In this document: piece after piece, positions 19,969 to 64,000 of the stretch
Numbering within the stretch: the stretch's first letter is position 1
How the letters are laid out: each line of letters begins with the position of its first letter
Source: an uncultured Alphaproteobacteria bacterium
Lineage (GTDB): Bacteria; Pseudomonadota; Alphaproteobacteria; CAAGCB01; CAG-977
Assembly (NCBI GenBank): GCA_944390195.1
Contig: CALXOZ010000010.1
Coordinates: 1 to 64,000 of the forward strand
Direction of reading: 5' to 3'
DNA: 64,000 nt
The notes under the pieces: model-generated
The model's input: only the letters and a program-made list of their open reading frames with translations
Database searches by the model: none
What the model was told of the DNA's origin: nothing
Made by a program: the position numbers and the translations under genes

Positions 19969-21182
19969 TTTTCAAGAACTCTCCCTTCAAAAATACCTGT
20001 TTGTGTGATGCCCGTCAGTCGGACGGAGATGAAGTCGCCGGCTTTGAAATCGCCGTCGACATGCACGTTGATATAGTGTTCGCACAATCCTTTTTGATCT
20101 GTTTCATATAAGATAACGGCTGTTTGCCCTATTTTGCCTTGCATATATTCAAAAAGCAAGTGTTCCGCCTTGGATCTTAAGAGTTTTGCCCGTTCTTTGC
20201 GGACGGAAACGGGTACTTGTGGCATCTTTGCCGCCGGTGTGCCGGGACGTATGGAATAAGGAAAAACATGCAGATGGGTTATGCCCGCTTTTTGAACCAA
20301 ATCAAGCGTGTTATTGAACATTTCTTCCGTTTCTGTCGGAAAACCTGTAATGAAATCCGCGCCGAATACGATATCGGATCGGGATTCGCGTAACTTCCGG
20401 CATAAATCTAAAATGTCCTCCCGTGTATGCCGTCGTGCCATGCGCTTTAAAATCATGTTGTCTCCGGATTGAGCAGACAAATGGACATGCGGTTGTAAAA
20501 CATCAGATTGCCCGAACAAAGCGATTAACCGGTCGTCGACACAAGCCGGATCCAGTGACCCCAAACGCAAACGTTTTAATCCGTCGACTTTTGTCAAAGA
20601 AAGAACCAGTTGTGAAAAATCAGGATAATCCGTAATGTCGACGCCGGTCAAACCGATTTCCGCGTATCCTTGTTCAACCAGTTTGTTTGCGTAACGGATG
20701 ATTTTTTGTGCTGATAAACAGGAACTTTTTCCTCTGGCTTGAGGGACTATGCAAAAAGTGCAACGGTGATTGCAACCTTGTTGAATTTGAATGAACGCTC
20801 GACATCTTCCTTCAAAGAAAACGGGTTCGGGAGGATCGAAATCAATGGCGGCATTGATATCGGAAACTATAATGTCAGGTCTTTGTGAAGTGAAATTTTC
20901 AGCATTGAATTTTTCATGATTTCCTAAAACACGGTCGACTTCAGGCATTTGAGCGTAAAGTTCCGGATGAATTTGAGCGGCACATCCTGTAACGACTAAA
21001 AATGCGTCGGGATGTTCTCTGCGTAATTTCCGTATTGTTTGGCGGCATTGACGTTCGGCTTCACCGGTTACGGCACAAGTGTTGACAATGATGACATTGT
21101 CCGGCAATCCTTGAAGTTCTTGCAGTGCGGCGGATTCATAGGCGTTGAGGCGACAACCGAAGGTAACGACATGTGCGGGCAT
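19962..21182 (-). CDS. mtaB: tRNA t6A37 methylthiotransferase MtaB
   Basis: A radical SAM enzyme that adds a methylthio group to t6A at tRNA position 37. Starting at ATG 21182, preceded by AGGAA, the 406-residue product has the three N-terminal UPF0004 cysteines (C10, C36, C67), the radical SAM motif CNHRCTFC with C137, C141 and C144, and a C-terminal TRAM-like domain. The N-terminal TFGCRLNAYES is diagnostic of the MtaB branch (MiaB has CQMN). A longer reading from 21293 lacks a ribosome site. It heads the operon with ftsY. Confidence 0.93.
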   Translation of the reverse strand: MPAHVVTFGCRLNAYESAALQELQGLPDNVIIVNTCAVTGEAERQCRQTIRKLRREHPDAFLVVTGCAAQIHPELYAQMPEVDRVLGNHEKFNAENFTSQRPDIIVSDINAAIDFDPPEPVFFEGRCRAFIQIQQGCNHRCTFCIVPQARGKSSCLSAQKIIRYANKLVEQGYAEIGLTGVDITDYPDFSQLVLSLTKVDGLKRLRLGSLDPACVDDRLIALFGQSDVLQPHVHLSAQSGDNMILKRMARRHTREDILDLCRKLRESRSDIVFGADFITGFPTETEEMFNNTLDLVQKAGITHLHVFPYSIRPGTPAAKMPQVPVSVRKERAKLLRSKAEHLLFEYMQGKIGQTAVILYETDQKGLCEHYINVHVDGDFKAGDFISVRLTGITQTGIFEGRVLEKC

Positions 21183-24365: not shown

Positions 24366-25073
24366 ATGTCTTTTTTTACGGCGAATGTTTTGACGGTGTT
24401 TCCTGAAATGTTTCCTGGATATCTTGGGTGTTCTTTGGCGGGAAAAGCCTTGGATGAAGGGATATGGACATTAAAGGTGACGAATATCCGCGATTTTGCG
24501 CAGGATCGGCATAAAACCGTCGATGATACGCCGTTTGGCGGCGGAGCCGGAATGATTATGCGTCCCGATGTTTTGGGAAAGGCGATTGATGCTGTTCATC
24601 ATGACGGAGCTCGTTTAATCTATTTTTCTCCCAGAGGGAAACAGGTTACTCAAACGTTGATCCAAGATTTGGTCGATGCGGGGAAGGCAACTTTTCTTTG
24701 CGGTCGTTTCGAAGGGGTGGATGAACGTGTGTTGCAAGCTTATCCTTTTGAAGAAATCAGTTTGGGGGATTTCATCTTGTCGGGGGGAGAACCAGCGGCT
24801 TTGGCTGTGTTGGACGCGGTCGTGCGTTTGTTACCCGGTGTCATGGGCAGCCGTGATTCTTTGGTTGAAGAAAGTTTCAGTAATGGTTTGTTGGAATATC
24901 CGCAATATACCCGTCCAGCACAATGGAACGGACGGAATGTTCCGGACGTCTTGTGTTCCGGACATCACGGGCGGATTGCCGAGTGGCGTTTGTCACAGGC
25001 GGAAGAATTAACAAAACAGCGGAGACCGGATCTGTGGGAAGCTTATCTGGCAACCGCTAAAGCGAGAGGATAA
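24366..25073 (+). CDS. trmD: tRNA (guanine-37-N1) methyltransferase TrmD
   Basis: A SPOUT methyltransferase that makes m1G37 and prevents frameshifting. The 235-residue product starts at ATG 24366, one base after the rimM stop. It shows the active-site motifs [16 protein letters not shown] near residues 56-71, [11 protein letters not shown] near 112 and the trefoil-knot loop [20 protein letters not shown] near 132-151. An upstream in-frame start (24330) lies inside rimM and is unlikely. Confidence 0.96.
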
Positions 25074-25077
25074 AAAT

Positions 25078-25449
25078 ATGAATTTAATTAAAACGCTCGA
25101 AAAAGAGCAAATGGAAAAGCTGGCAAAAAAAGACGGTTTTCCTGAATTTAAGGCGGGAGACACTTTGCGTGTCCATGCAAAGGTGGTTGAAGGGGAACGT
25201 GAACGTATTCAGATTTTTGAAGGCGTATGCATTGCACGCAAAAACGCCGGTCTGAATTCGACATTCACAGTCCGTAAGATTTCTTTCGGTGAAGGTGTCG
25301 AACGTGTTTTTCCCGTTTATTCTCCGAATGTCGCAAAAGTGGAAGTTTCCAGACGCGGTAAAGTTCGCCGCGCTAAGTTGTATTACCTCCGCAACCTGCG
25401 CGGAAAAGCGGCGCGTATTGCCGAAGTTGCTGATACAGCGGCTAAATAA
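25078..25449 (+). CDS. rplS: Ribosomal protein bL19
   Basis: Large-subunit protein at the subunit interface. The 123-residue product has the canonical [20 protein letters not shown], the bL19 signature [20 protein letters not shown] and [15 protein letters not shown]. It starts four bases after trmD. A strong terminator follows, ending the ffh operon. Confidence 0.97.
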
Positions 25450-25471
25450 TTTCTTTATGCCTCTGGCTTTG

Positions 25472-25507
25472 GAAAGGAAGGCGGTTTATCTTTACCGCTT
25501 TCCTTTC
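25472..25507 (+). terminator. Terminator of the ffh-rplS operon
   Basis: A 14-bp stem with a single G-T pair (GAAAGGAAGGCGGT with ACCGCTTTCCTTTC) encloses an 8-base loop and is followed by a T-rich stretch. It lies 22 bases past the rplS stop. Confidence 0.85.
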
Positions 25508-25562
25508 AAGTTGTCTTTCTTTGAAGTGGAGGCTTTTTATCATTTTTTATGGAGAAAACATA

Positions 25563-26582
25563 ATGGTTAAGGTTGCTGTTGTCGGAGCGACTGGAAATGT
25601 CGGACGCGAGATGTTACAAACTCTGGCACAAAGGGAATTCCCCGCAGAGGAGGTTTTTGCCGTGGCTTCTGCGAAATCCGCCGGTAAAGAGGTTTCTTTC
25701 GGTGAAGACACTGTTTTAAAAGTGCATGATCTTGACAAGTTCGATTTTTCGGGAATTGACATTGCTCTTATGTCCGCCGGCGGATCCGTTTCTGAAAAGT
25801 ATGCGCCGAAAATTGCGGCAGCCGGTTGCGTTGTCATTGACAATTCGTCACAATGGCGTATGGATCCCGATGTTCCGTTGGTCGTACCTGAAGTCAATCC
25901 GCAAGCCATAGCAGATTACAAAAAGAAAAATATTATTGCCAATCCGAACTGTTCAACAATTCAAATGGTTGTTCCTTTGGCGGCTTTACATCGGGCTTTT
26001 CATGTCAAGCGGGTTGTTGTAACAACCTATCAATCCGTTTCCGGAGCGGGAAAAGCGGCTATGGACGAACTGTTCGACCAGACGAAGGGAATTTATTGGG
26101 GCGAAGATTTATCCAAAACGCAAAATAAGTTTCCAAAACAGATAGCATTTAATGTCATTCCTCATATTGATGTTTTCTTGGATGATGGTTCGACAAAAGA
26201 GGAATGGAAAATGACGGCGGAGACAAAAAAGATTTTGGATCCGAAAATCAAAGTTCATGCGAATTGCGCTCGCGTTCCTGTTTTTGTCGGTCATGCCGAA
26301 TATGTGAACATTGAAACGGAAAAGGAAATTTCGGATAAGGATGCGACATTCATTTTAAAGAAAACGCCGGGCGTAACAGTTTTGGATACGCGTGAACCCG
26401 CGGGGTATCCGACACAAGTGGAAGTCGCTGGAGAAGACGATGTTTTTGTTTCACGCATTCGTTCGGATTCAACGGTTGACAACGGCTTGAGCTTTTGGTG
26501 TGTTGCTGACAATTTGCGCAAAGGTGCCGCTTTAAACGCCGTTCAAATTGCCGAAGTATTGGTCAAAGATTATTTAAAGTGA
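25563..26582 (+). CDS. asd: Aspartate-semialdehyde dehydrogenase
   Basis: It reduces aspartyl phosphate to aspartate semialdehyde, the branch point to lysine, diaminopimelate, threonine and methionine. From ATG 25563, with GGAGAA upstream, the product is 339 residues: NADP-binding GATGNVGREML at 8-18, NSSQWRMDPDVPLVVPEVN near 94-112, catalytic Cys130 in NPNCSTIQMV and HANCARVPVFVGH near 232. The longer frame from 25521 has no ribosome site and runs into the rplS terminator zone. Confidence 0.96.
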   Translation: MVKVAVVGATGNVGREMLQTLAQREFPAEEVFAVASAKSAGKEVSFGEDTVLKVHDLDKFDFSGIDIALMSAGGSVSEKYAPKIAAAGCVVIDNSSQWRMDPDVPLVVPEVNPQAIADYKKKNIIANPNCSTIQMVVPLAALHRAFHVKRVVVTTYQSVSGAGKAAMDELFDQTKGIYWGEDLSKTQNKFPKQIAFNVIPHIDVFLDDGSTKEEWKMTAETKKILDPKIKVHANCARVPVFVGHAEYVNIETEKEISDKDATFILKKTPGVTVLDTREPAGYPTQVEVAGEDDVFVSRIRSDSTVDNGLSFWCVADNLRKGAALNAVQIAEVLVKDYLK

Positions 26583-57955: not shown

Positions 57956-58031
<76 letters not shown>

Positions 58032-58033
58032 TA

Positions 58034-58063
58034 AAAAAGCCCTTGATTTTCAAGGGCTTTTTT
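58034..58063 (+). terminator. Terminator of tRNA-Thr
   Basis: AAAAAGCCCTTGA and TCAAGGGCTTTTT form a strong stem with a four-base loop and T-run three bases after the tRNA. Confidence 0.93.
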
Positions 58064-58285: not shown

Positions 58286-58558
58286 TCAGTTCAAAGCGTC
58301 TTTTAAAGCTTTACCGGCTTTGAATTTCGGCTGTTTGGAAGCGGGAATGTTGATCTCTGCGCCCGTGCGCGGATTGCGGCCGGTTGTCGCGTTGCGTTTC
58401 GTTACGCCGAACGTCCCGAAGCCTGTCAGGCGAACTTCATCGCCTTTTTTCAATGTCGCGCTCACCGCGTTTAAAAAAGCTTCGACAGCCCGTTCGGAAT
58501 CAACTTTTGTTAAGCCCGTGTTCTTCGCAATTTCCGCAACCAATTCTGTTTTGTTCAT
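58286..58558 (-). CDS. hup: HU family DNA-binding protein
   Basis: Nucleoid protein that bends DNA. The 90-residue product is canonical: [40 protein letters not shown] (DNA-binding arm) and the tail [19 protein letters not shown] is seven bases upstream. It is the last typical chromosomal gene before the CRISPR island. Confidence 0.97.
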
Positions 58559-58809
58559 CGTGCAACTCCATCTTCAAATATGAACCGAGCACAGCTTATC
58601 TTGTTTTAAAGGCGAAGCAAAGCCTTTTCTTGACTGTCAATTTTTTGTCGTCTTTGGGAAGATCGGCAGTTTTATTCACTTTTTGGAATAAAAAACACCT
58701 TTTGGGGGCGAAAGATAGCGCAGGGAAAGATCGTTTCATAAACGCTTGGTCTGAAGTTTTTTCGCTATGTTTGGCGTCTTTTCTTCCGTTGTCCGGAGCT
58801 CTTGTTGTC
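58559..58809. other. Gap between HU and the CRISPR array
   Basis: About 250 bases with the HU promoter region on the minus strand. I see no gene; the plus-strand frame that runs on into the array (58384-58902) is an accident of the repeats. Confidence 0.5.
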
Positions 58810-58827
58810 AATGGCATTGTCTCTAAC
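58810..58827 (-). repeat. Degenerate terminal CRISPR repeat
   Basis: AATGGCATTGTCTCTAAC matches the last 18 bases (plus strand) of the repeat with one change and is followed by exactly 30 bases before the first full repeat, preserving the array period. It marks the trailer (leader-distal) end. Confidence 0.75.
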
Positions 58828-58857
58828 AACAAACCTGTAAAAAGTCATAAGGACGGC

Positions 58858-59222
58858 ATTTTAGTTGCCTTACAAAATGGCATTGTCTCCAACACTGCAT
58901 AACAAGGAGTGCGTCTTGCTGAAGTTTTAGTTGCCTTACAAAATGGCATTGTCTCCAACATATCGCTATTGTAGGAACATTTACTACAGGTTTTAGTTGC
59001 CTTACAAAATGGCATTGTCTCCAACGTTAGCAGAAATATTAGAAGCCAAGCGCAGTTTTAGTTGCCTTACAAAATGGCATTGTCTCCAACATTGAGGATA
59101 GTCCTGACATAGGAGTTACAGTTTTAGTTGCCTTACAAAATGGCATTGTCTCCAACTTATGAACGATTTACTAGCATCTTTACGCAGTTTTAGTTGCCTT
59201 ACAAAATGGCATTGTCTCCAAC
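58858..59222 (-). CRISPR. Type VI-A CRISPR array, six repeats and five spacers
   Basis: Six 36-base repeats lie at 58858, 58924, 58990, 59055, 59121 and 59187; spacers are 30, 30, 29, 30 and 30 bases. All repeats are identical except the first, whose first plus-strand base is A instead of G. In crRNA sense (minus strand) the repeat starts GTTGGAGACAA, then forms TGCC / ATTTTGTAA / GGCA (4-bp stem, 9-base loop) and ends ACTAAAAC before the spacer, exactly the geometry of Cas13a crRNAs. The array lies 77 bases downstream of cas13a on the same strand; the degenerate end is distal, so the leader is on the cas13a side. A sixth, older spacer (58828-58857) precedes the degenerate repeat. Confidence 0.98.
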
Positions 59223-59299
59223 CTATAATCGAAAACGCGTTGTTTTATTTGTATTTTTCTCCTTTTTTCTTAAAAAATTATGATGGCTGCTCTTTGTTC
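59223..59299 (-). promoter_or_regulatory. CRISPR leader between cas13a and the array
   Basis: A 77-base AT-rich stretch with A- and T-runs, directly before the leader-proximal repeat. It may contain the array promoter (a CATAATTTT element lies near 59275 on the minus strand), but read-through from cas13a is equally possible. Confidence 0.5.
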
Positions 59300-62200
59300 T
59301 TATATAAATTTTAAACATAACAACTTTTCTATCATCCTAATATATTCGTCGTCATGTCTGGCTAATGACAAGTATTTCCTATCTTTTAGATGAACAATGT
59401 TTTTTGTTTTAAGTGAAGCTATTTCAAAACAAGCCTTTTGATCCGCTTCGTTAGACAAATGCAAGGGCTTAAATTGAATAATCACACCGTGCCTATCCAA
59501 AATCGTGATCAAAGACTTTGCAACCGCATTCTTAAGTTTTCTGTCATTTTGCACGATTTGCCTGCCCATAGCTATCATATCCAAAATTGAATGCCGTGGC
59601 AATTGGTTATACCCAATATAATTAAAATGAGCAATATAATTGCGGTTCGGATCTTGCGGCGTTCTTTTTTGTTTGTTCTTTTGTGCGTCCTTTTTCTCTT
59701 GTTTGCAAAGAGATGCTTCAATTCTTTCGTGATGTACGGCATAGCCGGCAAAACGCCCTAAAATATCCATCAATAAATGATAGAGCTTTTTAATATGAAT
59801 AAAATTGAGTTTATTATTAAGCCATTCATAGTGATTGATATCTTCACAAATCTTTTTATATTCCTCTTTTTCTTTTTTTTCCAATGTTTTATTCTTTACC
59901 CATTTATCATGAAGTGCTTGTCTGTCTTTCATCCAATCCGCAACTTTTGGCTTCAACTCTTGCCAATCATTAAAGTCTTTTGCTGTTATCTGAGCTTTCG
60001 CTTGCTGTACCACTTGCCGCATAATATGCAGTGCCGAATACTTTTGGATTTGTTCCAAAGCCGCAAAAATTACCGGCGTTTGACCATCACCTTGAAAATA
60101 TTTCTGTCGCACCCAGTCAGCATTCACATCATCAACAAAACTTTTCAGCAGATTTTTGGCTTTTTTCGTATCATTTTGCGGATTATCATATTTTTTGTCA
60201 TTGGTTTGCAGACACAACAATATTATTTTCCGTGCATTTTCTAAATCATTATACTCTTGAGTTCCTGTTTTTCCCATATCTTGACAGGCTTGAGTATATT
60301 TACTGATTTGGTTGCTCAATTCGTTAAGATGAGAAGCATCAAGCATTTTGGAAAAAATCCAAAAACCGACTTGTGATATAGCTTGCGGATTATATTGTTG
60401 AACCATGTTTTCAAAAAGTTTAGCTAAATCTTGGGCTTGGTTTGCTTCATCTAATTTTTGCGATTTAAACTCTATATTTAATTTGTTTGTTAGCGCAAAG
60501 TCATTAAACCCTTTAACAAACAGCAAATCCAAAAATTTCTGATATTTTCCTGTTTCGTTGTCGCTTAAAAAGCCTTCCTTTCTTTTGCTTGTTTCCTCGT
60601 TAAACAATTTTTTTTGTAACTCTTTTAAATAGTCTTGAGGCGCTTCTGAACAGATGACCTCAATTTCAGAAAAAGCGGCTTTTTCACGGTCTTTTTCGTT
60701 TTCTTTTTGATTTTGCGCTTTAACCGCCTTTGCCGCTTGATAAAAAGCATCTTTATCCCCAAGAAATTTGGTTACAAACTGATTATAATAAATTTGCATT
60801 AATGCGTTATAATAAGCCTGTGCATTTTCTTCTAAATCAGGATCATCATAAGCTTGGTAAATTTCCAAATATTCTGAAGTGTTTTTTTGTTTTTTTTGCC
60901 CCATTTTAAAAATTCTCGCGAATCCCGGAATAAAGGCAAGCGGCTTAGAACTCAAACTAAAACCATTAAAGATTTTTTCTAATTCTGCCTGATTATAATA
61001 AGCATACATCACATTATTTTTGACTCTTTGCTCCAAGATCTTCGGAAAATCTTCCAATTCTTGCTTAAATATGGGAGAAAAACGCAAAAGTGACTGCATA
61101 TTTTTATCAGCATACTTTTTATTATCCTTTTCATAAAAATCTAAAAAAGTCGCATTCTCTTTATAGTAGCCGTGTATTGTATTGTTTCTTAAAGCTGCTA
61201 ACGCATTGCGGATTGCATAAACCAAATCTTTATAATTTTGGCAATTGCAACCGTCTACATTAAAAAATTTTTGAAAAGAATCTTTAATGTCCTTATCTGT
61301 GATATTTTTGATTGCCTTATCAAGGAACTTAAATGACAGCGCGTCTGCTTTTATTTTTGAGGTTGGGTTTGCTGAGGTGTTGGCATTGACAATGTTTTTC
61401 AAATTATTACCGGCAAAAGCACAGGCATTTAAGAATTTGATGAGAAAGCTGTCTCGGACTTTGCCAAATTCCAAATCATCTCCACTAAGGTTATTTTTCT
61501 TCGCTTTTATCTTAAACAACGTCAGCGCGTTTGTAATTTTACCCCGCACGATTGTTTTAACCGTTTCCGGATTCATATAAAAATCAAAACTCCGGCGGTC
61601 TATTTGTTTTTTGCTCTTTTTTGTCGGGAAATACAGGTCAAGATATTTACCGACTTCAATCATAAATTGTCTGGTTTCATGAATTTTTTTGTCTTCCGGC
61701 GATAAATTTTTAAAATTTTCCCATTTTAACAAAACCTCTTTGTTGGATCGGATATATCCCCAAAACCAATCTTTATATTTATCTTTTATACGAGAAGTCA
61801 GCTTTGCATTTTTTCTACCGTTTTCTTCAAACAAAGGTTCCGCCTCTTTTTTCAATTCGGTTAAAAAGTCATCCAATTTACTTTCTTTAACTAATTTATG
61901 AAAAAACGTGTCAATATTTTGATTTCCCCAAAATGTTAAAACATTCCCGCGAGGACTTTTAGACGTATTGACGGCATTGTTATGGATTGACGCGGCCAGT
62001 TTATGCGTTTTCTTTTCAAAAAGATCCTTAATCCGTGCGGCATATTCTTTCCAAAAATCGGCATTATTTTCTTTTTTAGGGGTTTTTTCTTTGGCAAAAA
62101 GTTTTTCTTTTGCCCAAATTGTAACCAAATCTACATTCTGCTTACGCTTTATTTTTTCAGACAGTTGAGCCACGCTTTTTACAATTTCATCATAATCGAC

Positions 62201-62491
62201 CGCGTTCCCCTGTAAAACATCGCGAATGAAATTTTTCGTGTTTTTTTCAAATTGTTCTTTAACTTCTCTATCTCTCTTATCTGTGTTCTTAATAAAAGAG
62301 CTGTTATAAAAACTTGATATAAAGTTTTCTAATTTGTGCTGTTTTAAAAAGTTCTGGATTTTATCGGCTGTTTCGAATTGTTGATCCCCGACCTGCAAAC
62401 AGGCGTTTCCCGTCGTTCTGACGATTTTTACATCGAGTTTTTTTTCTTTTTGTTCATCTTGTGTTACAATTCTAACTTTGGTGATGCGCAT
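59300..62491 (-). CDS. cas13a: CRISPR-associated RNA-guided RNase Cas13a
   Basis: A single effector that binds crRNA and, on pairing with target RNA, cuts RNA in cis and in trans. The 1063-residue protein has two HEPN catalytic motifs: R435-N436...H440 (RNNTIH) and R950-N951...H955 (RNYIAH). One HEPN in the middle and one at the C-terminus is the Cas13a layout; Cas13b has them at the two ends. The C-terminal region matches known Cas13a closely: RNYIAHFNYI, DRKLKNAV, then KNIVHLK. Other landmarks are IPGFARIFK near 521-529 after HEPN1 and the LGRFAGYAVHHERIE helix before HEPN2. It is short for the family (commonly about 1,100-1,400). A TATAAT lies 25 bases before the ATG and AGGA nine bases before. 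No cas1, cas2 or accessory gene adjoins. Base composition looks AT-richer than the flanking housekeeping genes. Confidence 0.97.
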   Translation of the reverse strand: MRITKVRIVTQDEQKEKKLDVKIVRTTGNACLQVGDQQFETADKIQNFLKQHKLENFISSFYNSSFIKNTDKRDREVKEQFEKNTKNFIRDVLQGNAVDYDEIVKSVAQLSEKIKRKQNVDLVTIWAKEKLFAKEKTPKKENNADFWKEYAARIKDLFEKKTHKLAASIHNNAVNTSKSPRGNVLTFWGNQNIDTFFHKLVKESKLDDFLTELKKEAEPLFEENGRKNAKLTSRIKDKYKDWFWGYIRSNKEVLLKWENFKNLSPEDKKIHETRQFMIEVGKYLDLYFPTKKSKKQIDRRSFDFYMNPETVKTIVRGKITNALTLFKIKAKKNNLSGDDLEFGKVRDSFLIKFLNACAFAGNNLKNIVNANTSANPTSKIKADALSFKFLDKAIKNITDKDIKDSFQKFFNVDGCNCQNYKDLVYAIRNALAALRNNTIHGYYKENATFLDFYEKDNKKYADKNMQSLLRFSPIFKQELEDFPKILEQRVKNNVMYAYYNQAELEKIFNGFSLSSKPLAFIPGFARIFKMGQKKQKNTSEYLEIYQAYDDPDLEENAQAYYNALMQIYYNQFVTKFLGDKDAFYQAAKAVKAQNQKENEKDREKAAFSEIEVICSEAPQDYLKELQKKLFNEETSKRKEGFLSDNETGKYQKFLDLLFVKGFNDFALTNKLNIEFKSQKLDEANQAQDLAKLFENMVQQYNPQAISQVGFWIFSKMLDASHLNELSNQISKYTQACQDMGKTGTQEYNDLENARKIILLCLQTNDKKYDNPQNDTKKAKNLLKSFVDDVNADWVRQKYFQGDGQTPVIFAALEQIQKYSALHIMRQVVQQAKAQITAKDFNDWQELKPKVADWMKDRQALHDKWVKNKTLEKKEKEEYKKICEDINHYEWLNNKLNFIHIKKLYHLLMDILGRFAGYAVHHERIEASLCKQEKKDAQKNKQKRTPQDPNRNYIAHFNYIGYNQLPRHSILDMIAMGRQIVQNDRKLKNAVAKSLITILDRHGVIIQFKPLHLSNEADQKACFEIASLKTKNIVHLKDRKYLSLARHDDEYIRMIEKLLCLKFI

Positions 62492-62516
62492 GTGTCATTT
62501 TCCTGTTTTGAAACAA

Positions 62517-62547
62517 ATTATAATTCAAAATGTTAAAACAAAAACAA
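62517..62547 (-). promoter_or_regulatory. Putative cas13a promoter
   Basis: On the minus strand TTGTTT (62542-62547) and a perfect TATAAT (62517-62522) are 19 bases apart; the -10 ends 25 bases before the cas13a start. No hairpin operator is visible. Confidence 0.55.
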
Positions 62548-62572
62548 TCTAAAGTATATACCCCTAAAAGGC

Positions 62573-62908
62573 TTATAACATCTTCTTCTTTGTTTTCTGC
62601 TCATCCGTTTCCCGAATGTCCAATATATCGGCAAAAGGCATCTTTGTTTTTATAACGTTCAGTGTCTTTAACTCCAAATCAATGCCGGTGATACATCCGG
62701 ATATTTTTTCGTATCCGTGATGGTTATAGTAGGTGAGCTCTACAATTTTTCCTTTTCGCAGATGTTTTAAAGTGTTGTTAATAAGGGCTGTCTGTTCGTC
62801 AGACAGTTCTTTTTTGGTTTCAAACGTACATTCTTTTGCGGCAATTAAATCGTAATAACCTTGTAAAGCGGAAAAAGGCATAAATTGTTTGGCTCTGTCA
62901 ACCGGCAT
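62573..62908 (-). CDS. YolD-like family protein
   Basis: The 111-residue protein opens with MPVDRAKQFMPFSALQGYYD, the signature of YolD-like proteins (PF08863) of Firmicutes, and continues with KGKIVELTYYNHHGYEKISG and DILDIRETDE. YolD proteins are usually encoded next to a Y-family polymerase (UvrX/YqjW type) on phages and plasmids and are thought to assist or restrain it. Its start overlaps the polymerase stop by 11 bases, as in that arrangement. The family is unusual for an alphaproteobacterium and suggests transfer. Confidence 0.88.
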   Translation of the reverse strand: MPVDRAKQFMPFSALQGYYDLIAAKECTFETKKELSDEQTALINNTLKHLRKGKIVELTYYNHHGYEKISGCITGIDLELKTLNVIKTKMPFADILDIRETDEQKTKKKML

Positions 62909-64000
62909 TATGACCTCCGATCATTTTATTTCGTTCTCTCGCCGTCGCATAAGGTGTGTAACTTATTCCCTTTAAAATAGCGTTTTTGCCGAATTTTTTC
63001 TGAATTGTCAGCATTGCTTTCATAATCGCTCTTTCTTTCATGTCTTTTTCTTTTTCCGTAAACAAATCTTGTTGAATATTCGCAGATGACTGCAAATTGT
63101 TTAAGCTGATCGTAAGTTTCCGAATCGGTTTGTTCCGTTGTGTCGTTTGACAATATAAACGTTTAAATGCCGTAATGATGCGATTGTATGAATTGGTCGG
63201 CGCATTTAAACGGCGAGTTCCTCCCGTTGTCGGAACAATATTCTTGGAATAACAAACTGTTAGCGAAATACTGTCCGTCATTTCATTCTGGCTGAAAATA
63301 TCCAAGACGAGCCGATCAACCATTTCTTTTAAAACAATGAAAGCTTCATCATAATTGTAATCGCGAAATAAAATTTGACTGTTGGATTGTGAATGACTTT
63401 GTGGTCGATAGGCGCGAATTTGCGCTATTGTACAAGGTTCCCGACCGTGCGCATGATCGATCAGAAATTCCGCATTCACGCCGAACTCTTTATATAAAAG
63501 CCGTTCATCGCAATGAGCTATCCCGTAAAGATCGAAAATGCCGTATTTTTCCAATCGGAACGCTATCCCTTTGCCGATGTTCCAAATGTCCGTTATCGGA
63601 CGGTGATGCCATAGTTGCTCTTTAAACAATCGTTCGTCCAAATAACCGATATGATCGGGGACGTGCTTTGCCGTAATGTCCAATGCGACTTTTGCCAAAA
63701 ACAGATTTGTCCCTATTCCCGCCGTTGCGCATATTCCGCTTCGTTCTTTGACGGCGTTCATCAACATGACAGCCATTTCTTTGGGCGTTTTACGGTAAAT
63801 ATGCAGATAGTTGGTCGCGTCAATGAAAACTTCGTCAATCGAGTAGGGGTGTATGTCATCCGGAGCGACAAAATTCAGATAAGTGCCATAAATATCCGCG
63901 GAGACCTCCATATACCGCTTCATACGCGGTAAAGCCGTAATGTATCGGACGTTTTTCGGTATTTCAAAAATGCGGCAGCGATTATGAATCCCCAAATCTT
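62898..64000 (-). CDS. Y-family DNA polymerase, N-terminus beyond the window
   Basis: Translesion polymerase of the Firmicutes UvrX/YqjW-like type. The visible part (about 367 residues) lacks the first catalytic aspartate region, which lies outside the window; the frame is open to the edge. Visible motifs: HPYSIDEVFIDATNYL (palm, catalytic acidic pair), ATAGIGTNLFLAKVALDITA and DIWNIGKGIAFRLEKYGIFD (thumb HhH region), followed by the little-finger domain from about residue 220. The sequence CTIAQIRAYRPQSHSQSNSQ matches the region typical of YolD-associated polymerases. It probably heads the island operon with yolD. Confidence 0.9.
   Translation of the reverse strand, partial: DLGIHNRCRIFEIPKNVRYITALPRMKRYMEVSADIYGTYLNFVAPDDIHPYSIDEVFIDATNYLHIYRKTPKEMAVMLMNAVKERSGICATAGIGTNLFLAKVALDITAKHVPDHIGYLDERLFKEQLWHHRPITDIWNIGKGIAFRLEKYGIFDLYGIAHCDERLLYKEFGVNAEFLIDHAHGREPCTIAQIRAYRPQSHSQSNSQILFRDYNYDEAFIVLKEMVDRLVLDIFSQNEMTDSISLTVCYSKNIVPTTGGTRRLNAPTNSYNRIITAFKRLYCQTTQRNKPIRKLTISLNNLQSSANIQQDLFTEKEKDMKERAIMKAMLTIQKKFGKNAILKGISYTPYATARERNKMIGGHNAG

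Follow-up and report, generated by a model that had tools for sequence, protein, structure and literature searches.

Among type VI-A CRISPR (clustered regularly interspaced short palindromic repeats) systems, that of Listeria seeligeri provides the closest solved relative (~29% identity) of the Cas13a analysed here, which is encoded next to an array of its own in a 64,000-nucleotide (nt) stretch of DNA from an uncultured alphaproteobacterium (assembly GCA_944390195.1, contig CALXOZ010000010.1, positions 1 to 64,000; ‘the window’ in what follows). We take the L. seeligeri locus, like the one in the window, to be without cas1/cas2. Cas13a of the Rhodobacter type (PDB 7os0; clade 1 of Toro et al. 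2019, PMC6753606) belongs to the same family and comes from the host's own class, but the window protein matches it with only 37.7 bits by phmmer; clade 1 is mostly alphaproteobacterial, Cas13a being already known from this class (here and below, what is drawn from a cited account relates to the passages concerned).

Loci of type VI-A carry cas1/cas2 in only a subset of cases (PMC12669027). In Flavobacterium columnare, which has II-C and VI-B systems, there is, as here, an RNA-targeting array without a cas1 of its own and a cas1 elsewhere in the genome, and the VI-B array depends in trans on the II-C Cas1 (PMC8092290); that dependence has been proven by deletion, whereas in our case it is a possibility, concerns type VI-A, and has, as one candidate donor, a III-A locus presumably lying in the same mobile island. 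Leptotrichia genomes hold VI-A loci without cas1/cas2 beside other CRISPR types, and a sharing of adaptation genes has been suggested for them in an account (PMC6914741) whose passages on these loci do not describe VI-A as mobile-island cargo. According to a 2024 review, plasmids carry every CRISPR type but type VI (PMC11656645); our own tblastn search with the window Cas13a (E ≤0.01) gave no match among 72,556 records of plasmids and 50,697 of phages, a search that a distant Cas13a could escape. Nor did we find a report of Cas13a as mobile-island cargo in the open-access literature, in which few subscription journals and preprints are covered.

We propose that the window probably holds a working type VI-A system with its own array, carried as cargo of a mobile island at a tRNA-Thr gene. 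The system is of a known kind; what is unusual is its Listeria-like kinship in this host, a contraction in its second HEPN domain (HEPN2), and its being carried as exchangeable cargo of an island that presumably holds a second CRISPR system too.

Results

The 1063-residue open reading frame (ORF) at 59300..62491 on the minus strand, read from an ATG start, matches the NCBIfam model NF038188 (cas13A_C2c2) with 360.8 bits (E 1.8e-107; cut-off 150) and the PADLOC Cas13a profile with an E of 1.1e-112; Pfam returned a single weak, unrelated match under the family cut-off. The closest solved structure by phmmer (200 bits, E 4.4e-58) is that of a Listeria Cas13a (PDB 6vrb/6vrc/8zty), presumably the L. 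seeligeri protein, followed by Leptotrichia buccalis (47.5 bits) and Rhodobacter capsulatus (7os0; 37.7 bits), with both of these species names taken from the titles of entries 9mvs and 7os0. As an aside, the molecule field of PDB 8ewg/8h4u reads Cas9, yet the chains match Cas13a by sequence and fold, and the titles speak of a riboendonuclease. In an alignment of seven sequences the residues R435 and H440 of the HEPN1 motif and R950 and H955 of the HEPN2 motif are invariant, and DRKLKNAV stands at 983-990, a motif whose R and K we take to participate in CRISPR RNA (crRNA) processing in Leptotrichia. The ORF is uninterrupted and retains all four HEPN residues together with DRKLKN; RNA cleavage activity is likely.

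The array follows directly, on the same strand. A stretch of 77 nt (59223..59299), which may serve as a short leader, runs from the cas13a stop to the first of six full 36-nt repeats, which alternate with five spacers of 29-30 nt (58858..59222); repeats 1-5 (59187-59222, 59121-59156, 59055-59090, 58990-59025 and 58924-58959) are identical, whilst the leader-distal repeat 6 (58858-58893) carries one mismatch. A sixth spacer (58828..58857) leads to a truncated and degenerate distal repeat of 18 nt (58810..58827; 17/18 match), making six full repeats plus a truncated one and six spacers of 29-30 nt in total. Distal repeats in CRISPR arrays are commonly degenerate, and the array is not a product of chance, because five identical 36-mers recur at a spacing of 65-66 nt. 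The window repeat has a short stem and then ACTAAAAC at its end; repeats beside Cas13a in three other genomes (G270, G838 and G843) end, by eye, in ACTGCACC or ACTACACC at the same place, and by this likeness we read the array adjoining cas13a as having repeats of the VI-A plan. Judged on their sequences, the ORF and array are a genuine type VI-A (Cas13a) CRISPR system. The original prediction, made from the letters of the window, had put forward a 1063-residue Cas13a with these four HEPN residues, DRKLKNAV in its C-terminal region, and a matching array directly behind it; the profile and PDB searches, together with the alignment, bear this out, and the start it gave, 58810, coincides with the truncated repeat's end.

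Kinship was examined by searches with NF038188, which matched one of the 12 genomes of the order, namely the source genome (G000, in 38 contigs), and the same genome alone in a draw of 398 from the phylum; two overlapping draws from the class gave 4/385 and 4/389, which together amount to six distinct genomes including G000. A control genome, Bacteroides ihuae, also matches. The other five members from the class reach 608-775 bits with this model as against 361 for the window Cas13a, which is 17-18% identical to them and 30% identical to an N-terminally short protein of Listeria immobilis (blastp scores of 38-79 versus 238 bits). An eight-sequence tree joins the window protein to two Listeria proteins, apart from the five class members, with support of 100/100, in a tree of few taxa for which the program flagged long branches and skewed composition. 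By these comparisons the window Cas13a groups with Listeria more closely than with the alphaproteobacterial proteins compared, and it splits from the five class members instead of joining clade 1; its nearest lineage may lie outside the groups searched, with Clostridia, Bacteroidota and Fusobacteria as candidates. Scans for close homologues with the single sequence found none in genome or viral contigs, and a scan with the alignment found only L. immobilis in genome contigs and nothing in viral contigs; both worked from a few short peptide patterns, so absence is not implied. The L. immobilis gene (L006:1-3542), N-terminally shortened and, by eye, situated behind a transposase-like ORF, has no array within the first 8 kb and is perhaps a relic.

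The HEPN2 contraction spans residues 920-951 (59639..59734, minus strand), as placed by alignment with six homologues. This segment, between a conserved helix and the RNxxxH motif, comprises 32 residues in the window Cas13a, with the reading frame open across it; its counterparts have 85 residues in the L. immobilis protein and, in the five class members, 83, 70, 93, 80 and 76. Similarly, the phmmer alignment before the motif covers 84 residues of the Listeria protein (8zty) versus 29 of ours. The contraction accounts for between one quarter and two fifths of the length difference to the class members (1179-1278 residues), and for nearly the whole of that to L. seeligeri Cas13a (8zty; 1120). 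The original prediction of a compact and probably undescribed Cas13a in this background stands in part: the protein is shorter than all six of these, by a modest difference, but members from Alphaproteobacteria were known (PMC6753606) and are among the six distinct genomes above.

Structure models were of mixed use. That of the full-length protein (predicted local distance difference test score, pLDDT, 51.2; predicted template-modelling score, pTM, 0.28) was set aside as unusable; that of the C-terminal part (pLDDT 73.4, pTM 0.61) is partly usable, its best matches being the C-termini of Cas13a proteins, mostly at large root-mean-square deviation (rmsd). Foldseek gave 11 chains at E ≤0.001, all Cas13a by title or earlier match, with rmsd of 12-15. 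In a second structural comparison the best match was Cas13a 8zty (Z 10.5, rmsd 14.2, 193 residues); rows for Listeria, Leptotrichia and Rhodobacter had rmsd of 14-15, those for LbaCas13a 4.2-4.8 over 147-160 residues, and unrelated helical chains also scored Z 7-8.

The surroundings of cas13a point to a mobile island. At the tRNA-Thr gene (57956-58031), the 3′ end of the tRNA plus 10 nt (57984..58041, plus strand) forms the presumed attachment site, and beyond it lies an island HU gene (58286..58558, minus strand) whose product is 98.9% identical in the congener G007. From there, breakpoints in DNA identity between G000 and G007 delimit a cassette at ~58570..63315, which contains the array, cas13a, a yolD-like gene of the island core (62573..62908, minus strand) and the 3′ part of an umuC-like gene for a Y-family polymerase, likewise island core, that runs past the window end (62898..63998, minus strand; L007:6899-8176). 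On either side the two genomes agree closely, at 96.8% DNA identity over 376 bp in the HU stretch, beside the same tRNA-Thr, and 96.6% over 2801 bp in the block of umuC, a 155-residue protein gene and ArdC; a trigger-factor stretch is 77.5% identical over 1538 bp. Between the breakpoints G007 has instead an 888-residue UvrD-like helicase, a 199-residue protein, a yolD that is 41% identical to ours and an umuC 3′ part that has diverged. The island is common to G000, G007 and G006, and of the order's 12 genomes no fewer than six have an HU-umuC pair of the island type, with the slot between the two genes filled by cas13a in G000, by a helicase in G007 and by a related one in G003, holding no cargo in G005 and G009, and lost in G006, where HU and umuC are joined by deletion. 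In the stretches fetched from six further relatives (G002, G003, G004, G005, G008 and G009) no HU match stands beside tRNA-Thr; the survey of this neighbourhood covered just 1.7 kb past the tRNA in G005, found G001 too short, and left out G010 and G011. From its sequence context, then, the cas13a unit is an exchangeable cassette that a tRNA-Thr mobile island carries as cargo between its HU and umuC genes.

Several other genes of the island deserve mention. The UvrD-like helicase (888-901 residues) occupying the cas13a slot is found at L047:5825-9193 in G007 and L077:2780-5482 in G003 and, with its 199-residue partner in G007 (which has no Pfam match), is a candidate defence module. On the contig past the window end, adjoining ArdC, an 850-residue superfamily 1 (SF1) helicase with a C-terminal DUF2726 (L007:10172-12724) gives partial matches, over the helicase region, to the PADLOC profiles for MkoA and MkoC (E 1.6e-56 at best). 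The 155-residue protein (L007:8274-8738, L047:3421-3885, L076:2420-2884), again without a Pfam match, is 97-99% identical among G000, G007 and G006.

A copy of the tRNA-Thr end and downstream bases (57 of 58 nt) lies on a different contig of the source genome, C9, at 20688-20745. An rluD-like gene (24962-25936) follows 4.2 kb past it and then a lipoprotein-like gene; on reading the sequences, the same pair also follows tRNA-Thr in G004, and we presume that the C9 copy marks the other end of the island. Inside this presumed end, C9 bears a TraG-like fragment, a WYL regulator, csm6, cas10, csm2-csm5, cas6, a repeat array, cas1 and cas2, as well as a MobC/relaxase pair, a phage-type integrase and a GmrSD-like gene; the MobC/relaxase stretch matches the G007 island at 95.3% DNA identity over 1120 bp. 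The features of an integrated mobile island were found across C9 and the window contig: a copy of the tRNA end, an integrase and relaxase (on C9), and presence/absence among relatives. The C9 piece would be part either of the tRNA-Thr island or of another island in tandem with it.

This second CRISPR system is a type III-A locus (cas10, csm2-6, cas6, cas1, cas2 and a 7-repeat array; C9:7601-18029), the Cas1 and Cas2 of which match type II profiles best. A third, on contig C30 (4769-11064), is a type II locus with cas9 (1069 residues), cas1, cas2 and 28 repeats, taken as II-C because neither csn2 nor cas4 is among its listed ORFs of at least 150 residues. Cas1/Cas2 family matches in G000 fall solely on C9 and C30, with none on the window contig (C10) and none adjoining the cas13a array. 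The three repeats measure 36-37 nt; their spacing is 61-68 nt in the type III-A array and 65-67 nt in the other two. Such lengths and spacings fit a sharing of adaptation genes within the genome, and acquisition of spacers in trans for the Cas13a array is plausible. The ‘complete’ system in ‘a chromosome’ of the original prediction is hence complete as a Cas13a with its own array, not in its adaptation genes, and the description misses its status as cargo of a mobile island.

Discussion

We suggest the following for how this system might work. The array would probably be transcribed toward lower coordinates, either together with cas13a or following it; the protein would then cleave the precursor crRNA at the repeats and retain crRNAs of repeat-guide form, such as are described for type VI-A (PMC13187072). 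Binding of a matching invader transcript would bring the two HEPN sites together as a single nuclease able to cleave RNA both in cis and in trans, leaving the cell stalled, or dormant, and limiting spread of the invader; target-activated Cas13a arrests growth, and accounts of Cas13a from Leptotrichia, Listeria and R. capsulatus report collateral cleavage (PMC11042736, PMC11089165).

A number of observations weigh against a working system on a single island. The repeat stem, of 3-4 pairs, shows no better folding than shuffled sequences do (z -0.49), as is also the case for leader-repeat-spacer-repeat (z -0.02), and promoter-like sites (16) are near the shuffle level (mean 13.0, standard deviation 3.0). 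None of the six spacers has a protospacer in viral contigs or by phage blastn: at E ≤1 the latter gave nothing for spacers 1, 2 and 5 and merely 18-nt matches for spacers 4 and 6. The other candidate matches were attributed to chance, namely two single matches of spacer core 20-mers in viral contigs (21/29 or 21/30 over the full spacer), that of spacer 3 plus one flanking base to Brochothrix phage BL3 (24 query bases, 88.9%, E 0.6), and, for the array searched against the 12 genomes of the order, a best non-self match, among those listed, of E 4.8e-4 in the AT-rich part of the leader. HEPN2 is 38-61 residues shorter before its motif than in the six homologues, and pLDDT falls to ~50 at the motif loop in the C-terminal model. 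Finally, the assembly leaves C9 and C10 as separate contigs that do not overlap, the middle being unassembled, which is why one island is our inference, and tandem islands are possible; the island may still be mobile.

Some of these points would also suit a decaying or altered system, in which the contraction has weakened or abolished cleavage, leaving beside a static array either a relic or a protein that merely binds RNA under crRNA guidance. The 32 residues at 920-951 as against 70-93 in the homologues, the poorly modelled motif loop, and a short array with a degenerate distal repeat and no spacer match above chance all speak for it; against it stand an intact ORF, the retention of the HEPN residues and DRKLKN, and five identical repeats, and a degenerate distal repeat is in any case ordinary. 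We hold decay to be improbable, if worth keeping in mind. Somewhat less improbable, and compatible with the working system that we favour, is that the locus serves the island and not the host, its crRNAs mainly attacking competing mobile elements: cas13a is island cargo, the island also carries ArdC, a presumed anti-restriction factor, and CRISPR on mobile elements has been discussed in this sense (PMC11656645), but neither type of target gains support, for the spacers have no significant match in the 12 genomes of the order or in phage records (plasmids were not searched with them).

Two further explanations strike us as very unlikely. That the locus is an old, vertically inherited alphaproteobacterial system might be supposed from the make-up of Cas13a clade 1 (PMC6753606), yet within the order Cas13a is present in just one genome of 12, the protein joins Listeria and not the five class members (the caveats on that tree apply), and the gene, with a guanine-cytosine content of 33.8% versus 41.6% for window positions 1-57700, lies inside an exchanged cassette. 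An error of binning or assembly, such as the 38 contigs of G000 might invite, would have placed a foreign contig in this genome; but by ORF reading the same contig bears lon, clpX, clpP and trigger factor, the last of which is matched in all 12 genomes of the order, and G007 shares both the tRNA-Thr/HU junction and the umuC-ArdC block.

The working type VI-A system carried as island cargo thus remains our preferred reading. A more ambitious version, in which VI-A is interchangeable cargo, III-A sits in the same element and supplies Cas1-Cas2 to the Cas13a array, and the contracted HEPN2 is functional, is offered tentatively, and we would sooner expect one of its parts to fail than all of them to hold.

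Should the enzyme be active, the HEPN2 contraction would reveal a dispensable part of a Cas13a. An island that bears a Cas13a and, at what is presumably its far end, cas1-cas2 provides a testable route both for the spread of type VI-A and for the gain of spacers by VI-A loci without cas1.

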